Source: Candidatus Desulfosporosinus infrequens (GTDB taxonomy: Bacteria > Bacillota > Desulfitobacteriia > Desulfitobacteriales > Desulfitobacteriaceae). Taken from it: a stretch of DNA of 34,489 bases. Position 1 is the stretch's first letter; each line of letters opens with the position of its first letter. The notes beneath the pieces are model-generated. The model was not told where the DNA came from and did not search any database. It saw nothing but the letters and a program-made list of their open reading frames with translations. Position numbers and translations under genes: made by a program. The stretch covers positions 1 to 34,489 of the forward strand of contig OMOF01000026.1 of NCBI GenBank assembly GCA_900290375.1, given 5' to 3'. This document shows, piece after piece, positions 7,237 through 34,489 of this stretch.

Positions 7237-8565
7237 TTATGAGTCGTCACTCTCCGTTCCTTGTCCCAAGAGTGATTCCGCTTCGTGGGCTGGGAGAGTC
7301 TGCACATCTTTAAGTTTTCGGGCAATGGTGCGAGATTTTCGGGTCGCAGTTTCGATCGTGTTGCTCGCTTCTTGAAGTTTCTTCTGAGTTTTTTCAAGGA
7401 TCTCCACAAATTTACCGAATTCTGTTTTGACAGCGCCCAGTAAGTGCCATACTTCACTGGAGCGCTTTTCAATGGCTAGGGTTCTAAAACCCATTTGCAG
7501 GCTATTGAGGAGGGCGGCAAGTGTGGTGGGTCCTGAAATAATGACTTTGTATTCTCGTTGGAGGAGTTCACACAAGCCAGGACGACGTAACACCTCGGCA
7601 TACAAGCCTTCAACCGGTAAGAATAGAATGCCAAAATCTGTGGTGTTGGGAGAATCAAGGTATTTATCTCGAATGGTTTTCCCTTCTAGTTTGATGCGAT
7701 TTTCCAAAGATTTACCAAGTTCTTCAATGCGGGGGAGGTTGGCTTGATCCTGGGCTTCGATTAATCGTTCATAATCTTCGATCGGAAATTTGGCATCGAT
7801 CGGGAGCCAAATAATACTGTCCTGACCATCCCGAGCGGGGAGTTTGATCGCAAATTCGACGCGGTCGTTGCTGCCGACCTTAGTTATAACATTTGTGGCA
7901 TATTGTTCGGGAGTTAGGATTTGCTCCAACAAATTCCCCAGTTGAATTTCCCCCCAAATTCCTCGAGTTTTTACATTGGTGAGGACTTTCTTTAAGTCGC
8001 CGACGCCAGAAGCCAAGGTTTGCATTTCTCCAAGCCCTTTATGCACCGCTTCTAAACGCTCACTGACTAATTTGAAGGACTCTCCTAAGCGATGTTCAAG
8101 GGTAGCCTTGAGCTTTTCGTCCACGGTCGCCCGCATCTGCTCTAATTTCTGGCTGTTATCTTGCTGGAGAAGGAGAAGCCGTTCTTCCACCGTTTTGCGG
8201 AGTTGTTCTAATTTCTGATCATTTGTTTTGGTTAAAGAGCCTAACTGGGTGGCGAAAATATCCAATTGATTGCGTTGGAGGGTGGCGATTTCTGCCATGC
8301 GCATTAGGACTGATTCATTGAAGGAATGGACGGACTGGTTAAGCTCTTCACGGGCTTGTCGGGAGTTCGTAGAGGTTTCCTCGCGGTTCTTGGCAATTTC
8401 TCCATTGACAAGTCGTTCGTTGCGTTCAAGCGTTTTCTCTAAAGAAGCGAATTTACTCTCGAACTGGACAAAGGGAGTGCGTGACGAGCGTGTTAATAAG
8501 GTAATGAGTAAAATGATGGCGATAACGACTAGGATAATTAATCCGATCAGTAACGGTTCTGTCAT
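7237..8565 (-). CDS. rmuC: DNA recombination protein RmuC
   Basis: A 442-residue protein with one N-terminal membrane helix (about residues 5-25), a long coiled coil (about 35-190) and the RmuC domain. The domain is recognised by the GIWGEIQLGNLLEQIL segment, the LPIDAKFP motif and the later GPTTLAALLNSL segment. RmuC proteins limit recombination between inverted repeats, and their conserved domain is related to restriction-type nuclease folds. AGGAGG at 8575-8580 (minus strand) precedes ATG 8565. The 284-base gap to the next gene should hold both divergent promoters, but I could not assign either with confidence. Confidence 0.93.
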   Translation of the reverse strand: MTEPLLIGLIILVVIAIILLITLLTRSSRTPFVQFESKFASLEKTLERNERLVNGEIAKNREETSTNSRQAREELNQSVHSFNESVLMRMAEIATLQRNQLDIFATQLGSLTKTNDQKLEQLRKTVEERLLLLQQDNSQKLEQMRATVDEKLKATLEHRLGESFKLVSERLEAVHKGLGEMQTLASGVGDLKKVLTNVKTRGIWGEIQLGNLLEQILTPEQYATNVITKVGSNDRVEFAIKLPARDGQDSIIWLPIDAKFPIEDYERLIEAQDQANLPRIEELGKSLENRIKLEGKTIRDKYLDSPNTTDFGILFLPVEGLYAEVLRRPGLCELLQREYKVIISGPTTLAALLNSLQMGFRTLAIEKRSSEVWHLLGAVKTEFGKFVEILEKTQKKLQEASNTIETATRKSRTIARKLKDVQTLPAHEAESLLGQGTESDDS

Positions 8566-23298: not shown

Positions 23299-24576
23299 CT
23301 ATTTATTCATAACCCGGTTCATGAGGCGCATCGAACACATTTCTCCGCACATGGTGCAGCTGTCCTGATGCTCAGGGGCGGACTCTTTGCGATAGCGCTC
23401 CGGTTTTTCTCGGTCCAAGGCAAGGCCAAACATTTTCTCCCAATCCATAACTTGGCGGGCTTGGCTCATCTTCCGATCCCAGTCGGCAGCTCCGGGTATC
23501 CCTTTGGCGATATCTGCGGCATGCGCGGCGATCTTGACCGCTATAATCCCTTCGCGCACGTCGTTTAAAGTGGGCAGACGAAGGTGTTCTGCCGGTGTCA
23601 CATAGCAGAGAAAATCTGCCCCTGCCGAGGCGGCTAAAGCTCCGCCGATCGCACTGGTGATGTGATCGTAACCGGGCGCTATGTCAGTGACCAACGGTCC
23701 TAAGATGTAAAAGGGCGCACCGTGACAAAGTTTTTTGGCCAACTGGACATTAGCCACAACTTCATTCAGGGGAACGTGGCCCGGTCCTTCAATCATGACT
23801 TGAACATTCCGTTGCCAAGCCCTTTGGGTTAATTCTCCGAGGACAATCAATTCCGAAATTTGAGCTCCGTCTGTGGCATCGGCGATGCTGCCTGGTCGGC
23901 AGGCATCCCCTAGGCTTAAGGTTACATCGTATTCGGCGCAGATATCGAGGAGGTCATCAAAATATTCGTAAAAAGGGTTTTCCTGCCCGGTTAATTTCAT
24001 CCAGGCATACAGTAAGGACCCACCCCGGGAGACGATGTTGGTGACGCGGGAGGTCTGCTGGAAGTGACGGGCGGTTTCCCGGTTGATGCCGGCGTGGATG
24101 GTGACAAAATCAACGCCATCTCGGGCGTGCTGTTCTACCACGGCTAAAAACTCTTGGGGTGTAATGTCTTCTAATTTCTTATCTAAATAACCAAGGGCAT
24201 CATACATAGGAACCGTCCCAATCATGGCGGGGGACATTGCGATGAGGCGGTGGCGGAATTCGACAGTTTTACCGTAGTTGCTGAGATCCATTATCCCTTC
24301 CGCTTTCATATCCAGAGCCATACGTACTTTGGCCAGCTCGCTATCCAGGTTGGCACACTCCGGAGAAATCCCCAAATTGACGTTAATCTTCGTCTTAAGC
24401 CCCAGACCAACACCCTCCGGACTTAAAGAGGTGTGATTGCGGTTAGCGGGGATGGCAATTCTGCCCGCCGCCACCCGGAGCCTGATTTCTTCAGCAGTCA
24501 GGCTTTCTTTAGCAGCGACCGTTTGCATGGCCGCTGTGATAACTCCGTTTTTAGCTTGTTCCATCTGTGTACTCAT
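23299..24576 (-). CDS. thiC: Phosphomethylpyrimidine synthase ThiC
   Basis: A 425-residue radical-SAM enzyme converting aminoimidazole ribotide to HMP-phosphate. The short form seen in clostridia lacks the long N-terminal extension of proteobacterial Thi[11 protein letters not shown] near the N-terminus, [22 protein letters not shown] and [22 protein letters not shown] are family segments. The C-terminal cluster motif reads CTMCGEMC (CX2CX3C), one residue shorter than the CX2CX4C usually quoted. It is the last gene of the minus-strand thiamine operon, 82 bases after thiE. AAAGAG upstream of ATG is a weak ribosome binding site. Confidence 0.95.
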
Positions 24577-24658
24577 TGAATCACACTCTTTCTCTATACT
24601 TCATACTGTGCTTAGGTTTGTGTTTACGCAGGTAGGATGGGAAGTTTTGTTGCCTAGT

Positions 24659-25318
24659 TTAATAGTGTGTCTCCATAAGACGTTGCAACCTCTTGATCTT
24701 GCCCGCAATGTCAGGGCTACCCACAATCTCGGTAACAAAGGCGACGGTCTGAGCGCCTGCTTTGAGGACTGAGGCCAGATTGTGTTCCTTGATGCCGCCG
24801 ATGGCGACAAAAGGGATCTTCAGATTCTGAATGACGTAGTCTAAATAGTCCAGTCCTACTGGATCACAGACATCAATTTTAGTTTGGGTGGCAAATAAAG
24901 GTCCTACTCCGATGTAATCAGCGCCATCTTTTACAGCTGCCTGTGCTTGAGCAGGTGAATGAGTGGAAACCCCAATCAGAAAATCAGGTCCCAGCAACTC
25001 GCGTACTTTGGACAGAGGTAAGTCGTCTTGCCCAATATGCACGCCATCAGCGCCTACAGCAAGAGCCAGATCTAAGTGGTCGTTGATAATGAACAAGGCG
25101 CCGGTATGTTGGGTCATAGTCCGCAGAACAAGACACTCCTCATACATTTCCCTAACCTTTTTGGACTTCTCCCGGTACTGAAGAATCGGTACGCCGCTGG
25201 CCAAAATCTGACCGGCCACTTCAAGATTGCTGCGGCTTTGAGAGTGGAGTTCAGATGTGAGGGCATAAATGCCAGCGGGAAGGGCGCGCTTTTTTGAAGA
25301 TTTATTGATGATTATCAG
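24659..25318 (-). CDS. thiE: Thiamine phosphate synthase (second copy), start codon uncertain
   Basis: The body is clearly ThiE: ILQYREKS, NDHLDLALAVGADGVHIGQDDLP, DYIGVGPLFATQTK and FVAIGGI. The first strand expected of the family, GIYALTSE, is encoded at about 25250-25275, upstream of the first usual start (GTG 25219, which would give 186 residues and delete it). Between the in-frame stop at 25319-25321 and 25219 there is no ATG, GTG or TTG. A good ribosome binding site AAGGGAG (25328-25322) points to initiation at a rare codon such as CTG 25318, ATA 25315 or ATC 25312. The open frame is reported. It lies between thiF and thiC. Confidence 0.85.
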   Translation of the reverse strand: MIIINKSSKKRALPAGIYALTSELHSQSRSNLEVAGQILASGVPILQYREKSKKVREMYEECLVLRTMTQHTGALFIINDHLDLALAVGADGVHIGQDDLPLSKVRELLGPDFLIGVSTHSPAQAQAAVKDGADYIGVGPLFATQTKIDVCDPVGLDYLDYVIQNLKIPFVAIGGIKEHNLASVLKAGAQTVAFVTEIVGSPDIAGKIKRLQRLMETHY

Positions 25319-25359
25319 TCACTCCCTTCGTGCTACTAGTTCTTTTTCACCATCCTTGG

Positions 25360-25989
25360 TCAGCGCTTGGCGCTAGCCAACTTTCCGTTAAGTGCCCATG
25401 CTAAAACTAGGTTTGCTTGTTTAGCAGCAACAACACCGATGCGGGGAGAGAGGGGAGGGTGGTCATCTGCCACGTCCGTGCAGAAATCCCCGACAACTGA
25501 TAAACCGGAACTCCAGTGCAAGGTCTGGATCGCATCTGTGTCTCCCCAACCAGCCAGTCCAGACGCGCCGATAACTTTTTTCCCAGCCGCCAGACCCTCT
25601 TCCACGAACATTCTCTTAGAAGCGGTCTGATCAAAACCCTCTACCCACACCGCACACTGCCCAAATATCGTCTGGACATTGTCTGGTGTTATGAGAATCG
25701 ACCACAATTCCAAGTGTAACTCGGGGTTGATTCGCAAAAGGTTTTCAGCCAGAGCATCAGTTTTCAAAAGTCCTAATTGATCAGGAAAATAGACTTGTCG
25801 ATTCAGGTTGCTGGCCTCTACCCGGTCAAAATCGGCCAAGACGAGGTGCGTAAACCCACAGCGCACTAAGTGCCATGCGACATTGGAGCCCAAGCCGCCT
25901 AAACCAGCGATCCCGACGGATGTTTGCTGGACCCTAGCTAATTGTTCTGGAGGTAATGTCTCGGCCAATCCGGTCGTTAAAGGATTCAT
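25360..25989 (-). CDS. thiF: Sulfur carrier protein adenylyltransferase ThiF
   Basis: A 209-residue E1-like enzyme that adenylates the C-terminal Gly of ThiS. The nucleotide-binding GLGGLGSNVA sits near residue 30, followed by DFDRVEASNLNRQ. There is no CxxC zinc site, as in the short clostridial ThiF type. A longer frame starts at 26031, but ATG 25989 overlaps the thiH stop as ATGA and gives the usual length, so it is chosen. It follows thiH in the operon. Confidence 0.92.
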   Translation of the reverse strand: MNPLTTGLAETLPPEQLARVQQTSVGIAGLGGLGSNVAWHLVRCGFTHLVLADFDRVEASNLNRQVYFPDQLGLLKTDALAENLLRINPELHLELWSILITPDNVQTIFGQCAVWVEGFDQTASKRMFVEEGLAAGKKVIGASGLAGWGDTDAIQTLHWSSGLSVVGDFCTDVADDHPPLSPRIGVVAAKQANLVLAWALNGKLASAKR

Positions 25990-27116
25990 AGACCAACAGC
26001 AGCCTTTTTCCGCATATTCACCCAGTCGCAAAACGAAGGCAGATAGCCTTTGGCCCGGATCATGCCTACCACTTCTGGGACGGATCGTTCGTCGGCAATT
26101 TCAAATTGAGCGCTGCCCACGTTGTTATTCTCACTATATCCACCGACTGAAGTGAGAGCGCCAGCCGACATGCGAGTGATGCCGAGGGGCATTAGATTTT
26201 CACGCATTTGCGGACTTTCCCGGGTGGACAAGGTAAGTCCTGCTCGTGGCAGAAACAGCCTGTAAGCCAATATAATTTGGACGAAAGAGGCATCCGTGAC
26301 AGGAGCAGCAGAGGAGCGAAAACTGCCGGCATAGGGTCTGAGGCGCGGCACAGAGAGCGCAACTTCAACCCCGGGATAAGTCCTTTGCAAGTAATCAGCG
26401 TGAAGTGCCGAGAAAAAAGCGTCTTGCCTCCAGTCCGAGAGGCCCAAAAGTGCACCAATGTTAATGGCAGAGATTCCAGCCTCACAGGCACGCTCTGGTG
26501 CCTCTAAGCGGTAATGATAATTTCTCTTAGGTCCGGAGGGGTGTACCTTCGCATAGGTGATCTGATCGTAGGTTTCTTGAAAGAGAGTGACAGAATCAAC
26601 CCCTGCCTCGTATAAACGCCGGTATTCATGAGTGGATAGGGGATACACTTCAAGCCCAAGAGAGGCAAACATGGGCCGCAAGGCCTGTACGCATTCTTCT
26701 ATGTAAGCTGGTCCGCTCTGGGTGCGCGATTCTCCCGTCAAGAGCAGCAAATGTTGCAGTCCGGTTGCCGAGATAGCCTCACCTTCCTTGATGGCTTGTT
26801 CGACAGTAAGCTTGCAGCGTACAATCTCATTGCCAGCGTGGAAACTACAATAGAGGCAGCTGTTAGTACAAAAATTGGCGAGATAGAGTGGAGTAAATAA
26901 ACCAATCGTGCGCCCGAAATGGCGGATAGTTAAAGCCTGAGCCTTTTTGGCCATGGGTTCCAGATAAGAGTGGGCTGCTGGGGAAAGCAAGACCACCAAA
27001 TCATGGGGGCGGAGGGTTTCGCGGGTCAACACTCGCTCGACGTCGACTCCGCTAAAACTCTCCCAGGCCGACTCGGAGAGTCTGGGTTGCCAGTCCGTGA
27101 TTTGCTCGTAAAACAT
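25986..27116 (-). CDS. thiH: 2-iminoacetate synthase ThiH
   Basis: A 376-residue radical-SAM enzyme that cleaves tyrosine to dehydroglycine for thiazole formation, the anaerobic route (aerobes use ThiO). The cluster motif CTNSCLYC (CX3CX2C) lies near residues 107-114, followed by FHAGN. LLLTGES and SVPRLRPYAG are further family segments. ThiH is oxygen-sensitive, in keeping with an anaerobic host. GGAGGG precedes ATG 27116. It starts three bases after thiG and overlaps thiF by four. Confidence 0.95.
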   Translation of the reverse strand: MFYEQITDWQPRLSESAWESFSGVDVERVLTRETLRPHDLVVLLSPAAHSYLEPMAKKAQALTIRHFGRTIGLFTPLYLANFCTNSCLYCSFHAGNEIVRCKLTVEQAIKEGEAISATGLQHLLLLTGESRTQSGPAYIEECVQALRPMFASLGLEVYPLSTHEYRRLYEAGVDSVTLFQETYDQITYAKVHPSGPKRNYHYRLEAPERACEAGISAINIGALLGLSDWRQDAFFSALHADYLQRTYPGVEVALSVPRLRPYAGSFRSSAAPVTDASFVQIILAYRLFLPRAGLTLSTRESPQMRENLMPLGITRMSAGALTSVGGYSENNNVGSAQFEIADERSVPEVVGMIRAKGYLPSFCDWVNMRKKAAVGL

Positions 27117-31456: not shown

Positions 31457-32620
31457 ATGGCTTCGTGTGTACGTATTTTACATTGTGCAGGATTTCGCTT
31501 GGACAGCCCTTCCTGGGAAGGGCCGGAGAAATGGATTGCACAACGTAATCAAGATTTGTGGCAAACCTTTGCAGCGGTCCTCTCGCTTTGCCGGTCGGAA
31601 AAAGTAGATTTCCTTTTCCTGGTCGGTAATTTATTTGAACAAGAGTATGTGCGCAAGGAGACAGTCGAGCGGGTTGCCAAATCACTGGCCAAGCTGGATG
31701 AAACTAAAATCTTTATAGCTCCGGGAGAGAGGGATCCGTTGGTTACAACCTCTGCCTATCGCCTAGCCGTGTGGCCGAGTAATGTGCATGTATTCTCAGG
31801 TGGTATCAGCAGCGTAAAAGTTTCTGCCCAAAACGTCACGGTTTCTGGAGCGGGATGGACAGCCTATCGTCAAGAGGGGCCATTCCTCGACGGTTTTCAG
31901 ACTACGAGGGACGGAACGATTCAGTTCATGCTTCTGCATGCTGAGGTGGACTCGGTAGAGAATACCAAAGGGTTTATTTCTATCAGCCCAGAGCAAATTG
32001 CTGCCAGTGGTTTGAACTACCTAGCCTTGGGGCACCTGGAAAATTGGAGTGGGGTCCAGCAAGAAGGGGAAACAATTTGGGCCGATTGTGGTTCGCCCGA
32101 GGCTAGAAGCTTTCGTGAAAGTGGACCTCATGGTGTAGTCCTGGGAAAAATCGGGATAGAATCTACCCAATTCGAATTTCGGGAACTAGGACAGCGCCGT
32201 TATATTGAAAAGACTCTAGAGATCCGATCCGATCTGATAGGCCTTATGGCAGAGTTATTGGCAGAAACGAGCACACAAGAACGGCAAAAGGATTTATTTA
32301 GAATCAATTTGTCTGGGCCTTTATGGGAAGTAGAAGCGGCTATTCCAGCACTTCAGAAACTATTAGCGGATAAGTTTCGCTACATCGAAGTTTTACCTTT
32401 GGAAAGCCAACAAACTCAATTTAGGCAAGATGTCGTTAAACCCGTGCCCTTAATGCCTAAAACCCAGGATGGCTATCCTACCCTGCCTCAAATATTTGTT
32501 GATAAAATAGAAGAGCGCTTGAATGGAGCAGAGAGTGCGGAGGATCGCGAACATTGGGAGTTGGTACAGAAAATCGGATTGGCCGCACTGGGGCAGGGAC
32601 GGGAAGATGATGAGAATTGA
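31457..32620 (+). CDS. SbcD/YhaO-like metallophosphoesterase homologue with degenerate metal site
   Basis: A 387-residue protein with the layout of YhaO/SbcD nucleases: N-terminal phosphoesterase fold, C-terminal capping region. The metal motifs are altered. The usual ADLH is AGFR (residues 11-14), GDxFD is GNLFE (57-61), GNHD is GERD (90-93) and GHxH is GHLE (192-195). Two His positions (161 and 193) remain. It may therefore be a non-catalytic, structural subunit (inference). It overlaps the following SMC-like gene, as yhaO and yhaN pairs do. GGTGAGG lies a few bases before ATG 31457. Confidence 0.8.
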   Translation: MASCVRILHCAGFRLDSPSWEGPEKWIAQRNQDLWQTFAAVLSLCRSEKVDFLFLVGNLFEQEYVRKETVERVAKSLAKLDETKIFIAPGERDPLVTTSAYRLAVWPSNVHVFSGGISSVKVSAQNVTVSGAGWTAYRQEGPFLDGFQTTRDGTIQFMLLHAEVDSVENTKGFISISPEQIAASGLNYLALGHLENWSGVQQEGETIWADCGSPEARSFRESGPHGVVLGKIGIESTQFEFRELGQRRYIEKTLEIRSDLIGLMAELLAETSTQERQKDLFRINLSGPLWEVEAAIPALQKLLADKFRYIEVLPLESQQTQFRQDVVKPVPLMPKTQDGYPTLPQIFVDKIEERLNGAESAEDREHWELVQKIGLAALGQGREDDEN

Positions 32621-34489
32621 ACGAATCAGAAGCACAAATCTAACAGGTTTAGGGGATGTAGACTTGATATTTCCAGTGGGCCCAGCTTTGCTATGTTTTG
32701 AGGATCGAAGTCGTCAAAAGAAGCTGGGTGATCTACTGCTAGAACTATTCTATAATTCAAAGAACCCTCTGGCTGCAAAATCTCAAAGCTGTAACGGTAT
32801 AGTGGAAGTGTGGATGGTTGGGCAAAATACTCGCTTCCATATCCAGCGACAATTTGTGCAGCGTAGTAACGGATTAGAGCAGTCCCCAGATCTGGTGATT
32901 AAAGATGAAACAGGACGACAAATCTCCTTTCCAGAAACGATGACGCTAGGGGAATTTTTATTTCGGGTCAAGCAGGAAGCTTTCCGTCTGGGAGGGGTCC
33001 TGGAATGGCCAAGAAGCGGAGAAAATGATACCTTTTTCCGACGTTCCCGTAACATGCGGCAAGGAGGAGACGAAGGATTCTCGCTAGCTAAAGTACGGGC
33101 TTCTTTGGCAGGAGCGCAAAAGAGAGTGGAAGAACAAACAGAGAGTATGGCGTTGGTTAAGGCTGAGTACGATGCCCTACGACATGAATGGGAGGAAGCG
33201 CACCGCCAGCAGGAAAGAGAACGGTTGCTTCTGATAGAAATCAAGAATCTGCAAGAGAAGGAGAAGGTTTTATCCGAGAGGATTAATCAGGCAGAAAAAA
33301 TGCAGGAGCGCTTAACCGTGCTTCGTCAAAATACGGACTACCGTGAGTTACGTCAACTCCAAGGTGAACTAACTCGGTTGGAAGAACTTTGCCAAGAATT
33401 AGAATCAAATTTAACTGCGCTTACTCGTGAGTCGCAAGTGGATTGGGCAATGATTGAGAGCTTACGTGAAGAGTGTCTAGAGTGGGCAGGTTTTCAAGAA
33501 CAGGTGAATCTTATAGCTTCCGACTCTCAAATACTAGCACGAGAAATTTACGAGACACAAAATTCTCTACAAACGTCTGGATATCAAGGAATGTCGGAAA
33601 ACGAGGTCCAGGCTCTGCGTCGGGCGGAAGAGGAAAGGCGCGCGGCCCAGGAGGAACTCGAACCTGAACTAGAGAATCTAGTCGTCCTGAAAAGTGAACT
33701 TGAAAAAATACAAATAGTACGTACAAATGAGATTACGAAACTACAGGCTTTATCAGGTATGGCTGGAGTAACTGAGGCTGCTGAAACAAGGATTGCGCGC
33801 AGAGAAAGACTTTTGGCGCTGTGGCGAAACTCCCAAATAGGCAGTTTTCTTGACCAGACATTGCGAGAAAAGCTTAGCGTGACTAGTATCAGCGATAGGC
33901 TTTCATTGCGCCTTACAAAGTACTACCAAAACTATAATGTCTCAAACTTCAAAGAATTCACATGTCAATTGGAAGATTTTCGTGTCTTAAGGCAGCAGGT
34001 AGAACGGTTGCAAATGGAGTTAGAACTCCTGCAAGAGAAAGTGCGTTGGGAGGAAAAACTACGTAAGATAGTAAATTCTTGCAATACGATGTTAAAAAGG
34101 GCTTTTAGAACGGCTAAAGTAGCTGATTTTCCGGCTTGGCTGAACGGATGGGAAGACCATCAGCAAAAAAAAATCCAGATTGACCTCTGGCAGGATGAGT
34201 TGCGGCTTAAACTAGAACAGCAGACGAGGGAAGAAAAAAAGATGGCAACGTCTACCGAACGACTGCGTGAAAAATTGGGAATTTGGGAAAATATTACATC
34301 TGACAGAGATGAAGTTTTGGCTGAAGTCATGAACATTGCCAGGCAATTACGAACCAAAGATGAGGCGGAAAGAGAAGCCGCCGTGTTTTCGGAAAAGTTT
34401 AATGATATGCTCGGTGATCGCAATATCGAACAGCTTGCCAAGATTTTGGAACCCTTGGCGGATTTGGAACGCGAAACCCGTCTTTCCGG
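32607..34489 (+). CDS. SbcC/YhaN-like coiled-coil protein lacking the P-loop (runs off right edge)
   Basis: An uninterrupted frame from ATG 32607 (or ATG 32610) to the window end, 627 codons. The N-terminal strand MRIERIRSTNLTGLGDVDLIFP matches the start of YhaN/SbcC ATPases, but where GPNEAGKST is expected the sequence reads FEDRSRQKK (residues 31-39). The following helix, LGDLLLELFYN, aligns normally. Long coiled coils occupy about residues 165 to the edge. No CxxC zinc hook is seen so far. The C-terminal ATPase half is outside the window. It overlaps the SbcD-like gene by 14 bases. Confidence 0.8.
   Translation, partial: MMRIERIRSTNLTGLGDVDLIFPVGPALLCFEDRSRQKKLGDLLLELFYNSKNPLAAKSQSCNGIVEVWMVGQNTRFHIQRQFVQRSNGLEQSPDLVIKDETGRQISFPETMTLGEFLFRVKQEAFRLGGVLEWPRSGENDTFFRRSRNMRQGGDEGFSLAKVRASLAGAQKRVEEQTESMALVKAEYDALRHEWEEAHRQQERERLLLIEIKNLQEKEKVLSERINQAEKMQERLTVLRQNTDYRELRQLQGELTRLEELCQELESNLTALTRESQVDWAMIESLREECLEWAGFQEQVNLIASDSQILAREIYETQNSLQTSGYQGMSENEVQALRRAEEERRAAQEELEPELENLVVLKSELEKIQIVRTNEITKLQALSGMAGVTEAAETRIARRERLLALWRNSQIGSFLDQTLREKLSVTSISDRLSLRLTKYYQNYNVSNFKEFTCQLEDFRVLRQQVERLQMELELLQEKVRWEEKLRKIVNSCNTMLKRAFRTAKVADFPAWLNGWEDHQQKKIQIDLWQDELRLKLEQQTREEKKMATSTERLREKLGIWENITSDRDEVLAEVMNIARQLRTKDEAEREAAVFSEKFNDMLGDRNIEQLAKILEPLADLERETRLS

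Follow-up and report, generated by a model that had tools for sequence, protein, structure and literature searches.

A two-gene locus at the end of the contig

The window, by which we mean the whole stretch of DNA analysed (34,489 nucleotides), is contig C408 of the Candidatus Desulfosporosinus infrequens genome (G000, 5.3 Mb in 971 contigs). Two plus-strand open reading frames (ORFs) lie at its end. The first (31457-32620) begins 101 bases downstream of a molybdopterin-oxidoreductase-like gene and encodes a degenerate homologue of the YhaO/SbcD/Mre11-like nucleases (387 amino acids), a pseudo-nuclease that matches a YhaO profile and has lost active-site residues. The second (32607-34489) overlaps it by 14 bases and encodes the N-terminal 627 residues of a YhaN/Rad50-like coiled-coil partner, hereafter the SMC-like protein. 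This ORF opens with ATGATG at 32607, orthologues starting from the second of these ATGs (32610), and it is still open where the window ends. The final 102 bases of the window recur without mismatch at the end of another contig of this genome, C451, and joining the two contigs gives a protein of 815 amino acids with its stop at the window-equivalent position 35054; the remainder of the gene lies on the minus strand of C451 (L003, 15721 down to 15157). Orthologues align across the join, the nearest with 69% identity over the full length, and the assignment of the partner is based on the contig overlap, the orthologues and structure. Two other minus-strand regions of the window were annotated: an RmuC-family gene (7237-8565), which encodes a second recombination-linked coiled-coil protein 23 kb from the pair, and ThiC with a BATS-domain radical SAM protein (23299-27116), part of a thiamine synthesis cluster.

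Both proteins are homologous to the YhaO-YhaN pair

Pfam and NCBIfam models do not recognise the SMC-like protein and match the nuclease-like protein below their cut-offs only, with weak Mre11 matches in NCBIfam and PDB. An intact YhaO-YhaN pair is present in two genomes of the same order (G047 and G048; loci L104 and L105), and profiles built from these and other pairs align along both proteins, which are thus homologous to it over their full length. The nuclease-like protein matches the canonical YhaO profile of the order with an E value of 2e-50 (28% identity over 370 columns), and profile-profile comparison of the SMC-like protein with YhaN gives an E value of 3e-8 and a probability of 95.

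Structure was assessed on an AlphaFold2 model of the orthologue at L034 (mean pLDDT 84). At each end of the model, strands and helices follow the pattern of a Rad50 head; long helices connect the two ends, and the N- and C-lobes are assembled, so the SMC-like protein has the bipartite head and long coiled coil of the Rad50 type. Among solved structures it is matched best by Rad50 and SMC heads, the Rad50 heads scoring Z 17-18; Pyrococcus furiosus Rad50 (4nch_A) superposes with Z 18.3 and 3.2 Å over 244 residues across both termini. A fold search with a model of a fused protein, of low confidence in the nuclease part (residues 131-249), gave middling scores only (Mre11, Z 8-9). The first-pass annotation of this DNA had aligned the N-terminal strands with YhaN-type ATPases and labelled the protein SMC/YhaN-like; both the alignment and the label are borne out, YhaN being the closer relative.

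The ATPase and nuclease centres are lost throughout the clade

In the window, the sequence FEDRSRQKK (32697-32723, plus strand) stands exactly opposite the P-loop GPNESGKST of the intact same-order pair, as aligned with YhaN at L104, L105, L064 and L066, and as had been proposed from the letters alone. The residues at this position vary among orthologues. None of the 33 SMC-like sequences examined contains a G-x4-GK[ST], and a P-loop at another place in the protein was likewise sought and rejected. With the rest of the gene in hand, the C-lobe could be aligned with intact YhaN: no orthologue examined retains the signature motif, the Walker B Asp/Glu or the switch His. Intact YhaN carries GPNESGKST, LSxGT, LDEPF and FSCH, whereas all four are gone in the pair studied here, with sequences such as YFAYRMA, PLFFSVG and TTSD in place of LSxGT, LDEP and FSCH. 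Since the loss is common to the orthologues and none has a normal P-loop, a local mutation or assembly error is ruled out.

The nuclease half was scored over 38 nuclease-like sequences for the eight active-site residues of Mre11-type enzymes. Intact YhaO has DxH, GD, GNHD and GHxH, whereas most of these nuclease residues are gone here. Motif I (canonical D-x-H) reads G-F-R in the window (31490-31498, plus strand), its Asp being absent in 38/38 sequences and its His in 37/38. Motif III (canonical PGNH) reads PGER (31721-31732, plus strand), and both Asn and His are missing in all 38. Motif V (canonical GHxH) reads GHLE (32030-32041, plus strand), again with the second His absent throughout. Motifs I, III and V are therefore broken in every member, the set of five phosphodiesterase motifs of Mre11 is nowhere complete, and at least five of the eight active-site residues are lost in nearly all members. 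The suggestion that the adjacent nuclease is degenerate, and that both enzymatic centres have gone together, holds well beyond this genome: joint loss characterises the clade as a whole (38 nuclease-like and 33 SMC-like sequences).

The pair was found in one group and is under purifying selection

Of the 30 genomes in the genus, 26 carry the SMC-like gene, as does one genome from another genus of the same family. The genus carriers have open frames, one of them fused and one broken by an assembly gap, and share 38-69% identity. Of 75 genomes of the class, 40 are matched by the nuclease profile, and these fall in seven of the 25 genera, the sequences of G047 and G048 being the canonical forms; canonical YhaN was detected by profile in these two only in the survey of class genomes. 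The intact pair was seen only in a sister family, within the same order. When about 85,000 species genomes were scanned with a sequence pattern, the clade was found in this group only, apart from three distant matches (L064-L066). The pair is absent from G020, a 98%-complete member of the genus, and from most other genera of the family. In the nuclease tree a branch supported at 98/98 has all degenerate sequences to one side of it; the exact root is unsure, the outgroup branches being long.

Both genes are under purifying selection: dN/dS is 0.15-0.28 for each gene in seven pairs, and about 0.2 also in the SMC N-lobe. At each of the 29 loci checked, the first gene is preceded by a GAGGTGAA-like Shine-Dalgarno sequence. 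The nuclease gene comes first and the two genes are adjacent in all complete two-gene loci, while the other neighbours change; no conserved neighbour that could serve as a functional clue is common to the whole clade. Recurrent neighbours restricted to subclades are MutY (L059, L102 and L107), an Fpg-like glycosylase and an SNF2 helicase. At L107 (4153-6424, in the single-contig genome G052) the SMC-like ORF is split by a frameshift, either a sequencing error or true decay.

Three other origins or settings were considered. A prophage or viral origin was rejected, no relative being found among viral contigs. PADLOC models of defence systems gave chance-level matches only (best E 0.025). The yhaONM genes of Bacillus pumilus belong to the LexA/SOS regulon (PMC3896406); in the clade studied here a GAAC-N4-GTTC site was found 217-218 bases upstream in only three close relatives and no general LexA-like site was detected, and SOS control was accordingly rejected.

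Conservation has shifted to the predicted interface, and the genes have fused repeatedly

In the nuclease-like protein the conserved parts are residues 1-120, residues 181-210 and a C-terminal helix, WELVQKIGLAALGQGR (32555-32602, plus strand), which occupies the position of the Rad50-binding region in Mre11. Mean column entropy is 1.06 at residues 361-387, compared with 1.8-2.0 at residues 301-360. In Mre11, the C-terminal helix-loop-helix binds the coil base of Rad50 (PMC7260605). The corresponding coil base of the SMC-like protein (residues 149-215; 33051-33251, plus strand) is its most conserved part, above all at residues 151-210. Mean column entropy at the coil base is about 1.0, compared with 1.56 for the protein as a whole and about 2.0 in the former P-loop region, one of the least conserved. 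Within the coil, DYREL and LEPL are conserved as well; DYREL, part of QNTDYRELR (33327-33353, plus strand), is present in each fused or shortened form tested and in all tested two-gene orthologues except one. Conservation has thus shifted to the fold, to the helix by which Mre11 binds Rad50, and to the coil base.

The sampled genomes can be arranged as a series of reductions. The intact pair (G047 and G048) is the first stage. The second, in Desulfosporosinus and at L029 and L059, consists of two genes with all motifs gone and an N-lobe of 142-151 amino acids, counted up to the coil-base motif, a length that holds for most two-gene forms. In the g14 genomes there are still two genes, with the N-lobe cut to 104 (L102) or 65 amino acids (L103). 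A fourth form, in five genomes (L051, L054, L055, L056 and L058), is a single ORF of 1063-1093 amino acids without the N-lobe, in which the Mre11-type C-terminal helix lies 37-46 residues before the coil-base motif. Finally, two g17 metagenome-assembled genomes (L061 and L062) encode one ORF of 563-571 amino acids comprising the nuclease fold and a short coil; these have also lost the cap region, most of the distal coil and the C-lobe, and keep the DYREL and LEPL motifs. Because of this shortening, the absence from G020 and most other genera of the family, and the frameshift in G052, the pair is not essential everywhere.

Fusion into one protein happened at least twice. In D. metallidurans (L012/L038; L038, 9926-13486) an in-frame deletion produced a separate 1187-amino-acid fusion in one ORF, which drops about the first 35 SMC-like residues, including the P-loop position; it is seen in this one species. 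Another fusion arose separately in Gracilibacter, Dichloromethanomonas and other Peptococcaceae, and mapping the fusion label on the nuclease tree requires three changes. Repeated fusion supports the view that the two proteins form a complex, as do their linkage and the conserved interface. The main argument for its persistence is that both sides of the predicted contact are kept and that the fusions occur at that point. The first-pass annotation had postulated a co-evolved pseudo-SbcCD complex; the complex is supported in this way, but pseudo-YhaO/YhaN (SbcE) is the more exact name.

A probable non-enzymatic scaffold

The two-gene unit probably survives as a non-enzymatic scaffold. We consider it likely, with considerable room for doubt, that the pair is an ATP-independent, nuclease-dead scaffold derived from YhaO-YhaN, both centres having been lost before the clade diversified. 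By descent the two genes belong to the YhaO-YhaN (SbcE) lineage of the Mre11-Rad50/SbcCD superfamily. The pseudo-nuclease would still dimerise, and its C-terminal helices, like the Rad50-binding domain of Mre11, would still hold on to the partner's coil at its base. The resulting complex may be a fixed scaffold or tether, two joined heads with projecting coils, that holds a DNA or protein partner without cutting and without an ATP gate. With ATP no longer bound, the N-terminal ATPase lobe would be dispensable, and could have been shortened or deleted in several lineages while the nuclease fold, the interface and the proximal coil were kept. Of the roles proposed at first, an architectural or tethering one fits the data best, and an inhibitory one is weaker.

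That inhibitory role would make the pair a regulator or decoy of the cell's own canonical SbcCD, the dead proteins competing for DNA ends or forming mixed complexes and so restraining the active enzyme. The canonical enzyme does coexist with the pair in most carriers: sbcD lies above the cut-off in 56 of 66 order genomes of at least 80% completeness, most carriers included, and adjoins sbcC in the window's own genome. However, five carriers (G034, G037, G038, G056 and G062, most of them drafts) have no sbcD match above the cut-off, sbcCD is equally common in genomes without the pair, and the pair descends from YhaO-YhaN rather than SbcCD. We therefore regard such a role as unlikely.

Several active-site residues survive in many members of the nuclease family (Asp of motif II in 23/38 sequences, His of motif IV in 32/38, the first His of motif V in 28/38), and for this reason residual metal binding may persist. 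These residues (Asp or Asn of motif II and the two His) could even form a new metal site or ligand pocket, making the protein, for example, a sensor or a phosphodiesterase with a different specificity, and newly conserved residues such as Cys10, Cys45 and D16-S17-P18 would agree with this. Such a changed enzyme seems improbable given the breadth of the active-site loss described above; moreover, the motif II Asp is Asn in 15/38 sequences, and several lineages have lost the His residues retained elsewhere yet still keep the protein. Slow decay of a relic YhaO-YhaN without present function would account for the stepwise shortening in related genera, the split ORF in G052 and the absence from several relatives, but is very improbable in view of the dN/dS near 0.2 in both genes and the SMC N-lobe, the open frames in 26/30 genus genomes at 38-69% identity, the Shine-Dalgarno sequence kept throughout and near-invariant motifs such as DYREL.

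Comparison with known systems

The usual view of Mre11-Rad50 complexes is of nucleases driven by ATP that also have a structural role. A clade that has lost both activities, with selection on structure alone, would separate the enzymatic from the structural role, and its graded reductions would mark the parts needed for the latter. If the scaffold or tether reading is true, the architecture of such complexes is useful without ATP or nuclease activity. More broadly, we see about even chances that an Mre11-Rad50-type repair machine became, in this Bacillota clade, a wholly non-enzymatic constitutive tether of DNA or protein, along a path from intact pair to double pseudoenzyme to fused protein without the Walker A lobe. 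The literature searched, mostly outside subscription journals, yielded no report of a YhaO-YhaN or SbcCD pair that has lost its activities, in line with the initial impression that the pair was unreported; its position below Pfam and NCBIfam cut-offs may explain this.

The pair shares its gene order, architecture and descent with YhaO-YhaN (SbcE) of Bacillus subtilis and relatives. With SbcCD and Mre11-Rad50 it has in common the head fold, the long coil and the adjacent nuclease gene, but it is without catalytic centres, and most of these genomes have a separate canonical sbcCD as well. In function, the nearest analogues are the B-subunits of eukaryotic replicative DNA polymerases, whose Mre11-like nuclease fold (of the calcineurin-like phosphoesterase type) is inactive, its catalytic residues having been lost, and is regarded as a scaffold (PMC4996933). 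These belong to another family and have no Rad50-like partner, so the likeness is one of analogy only.

Planctomycete YhaO-YhaN pairs (L066 and L113-L124) resemble the present pair in that the nuclease half is degenerate in 12/12 loci read, but the YhaN P-loop, GPNEAGK[ST], is intact in 11/12 of the same loci, and only one centre is lost. This is an independent, one-sided inactivation, common in the family sampled, and YhaO inactivation is thus recurrent. Loss of both halves was seen only in the Desulfosporosinus-group clade. In two further YhaO homologues (L064, 10004-11113; L065, 9902-11059) motif III alone is changed, from GNH to GEK or GER, and the other motifs are intact. These were rejected as a step on the path of inactivation, as the loci had been found by a pattern containing the altered motif. 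At L064 an intact YhaN adjoins the altered YhaO homologue.
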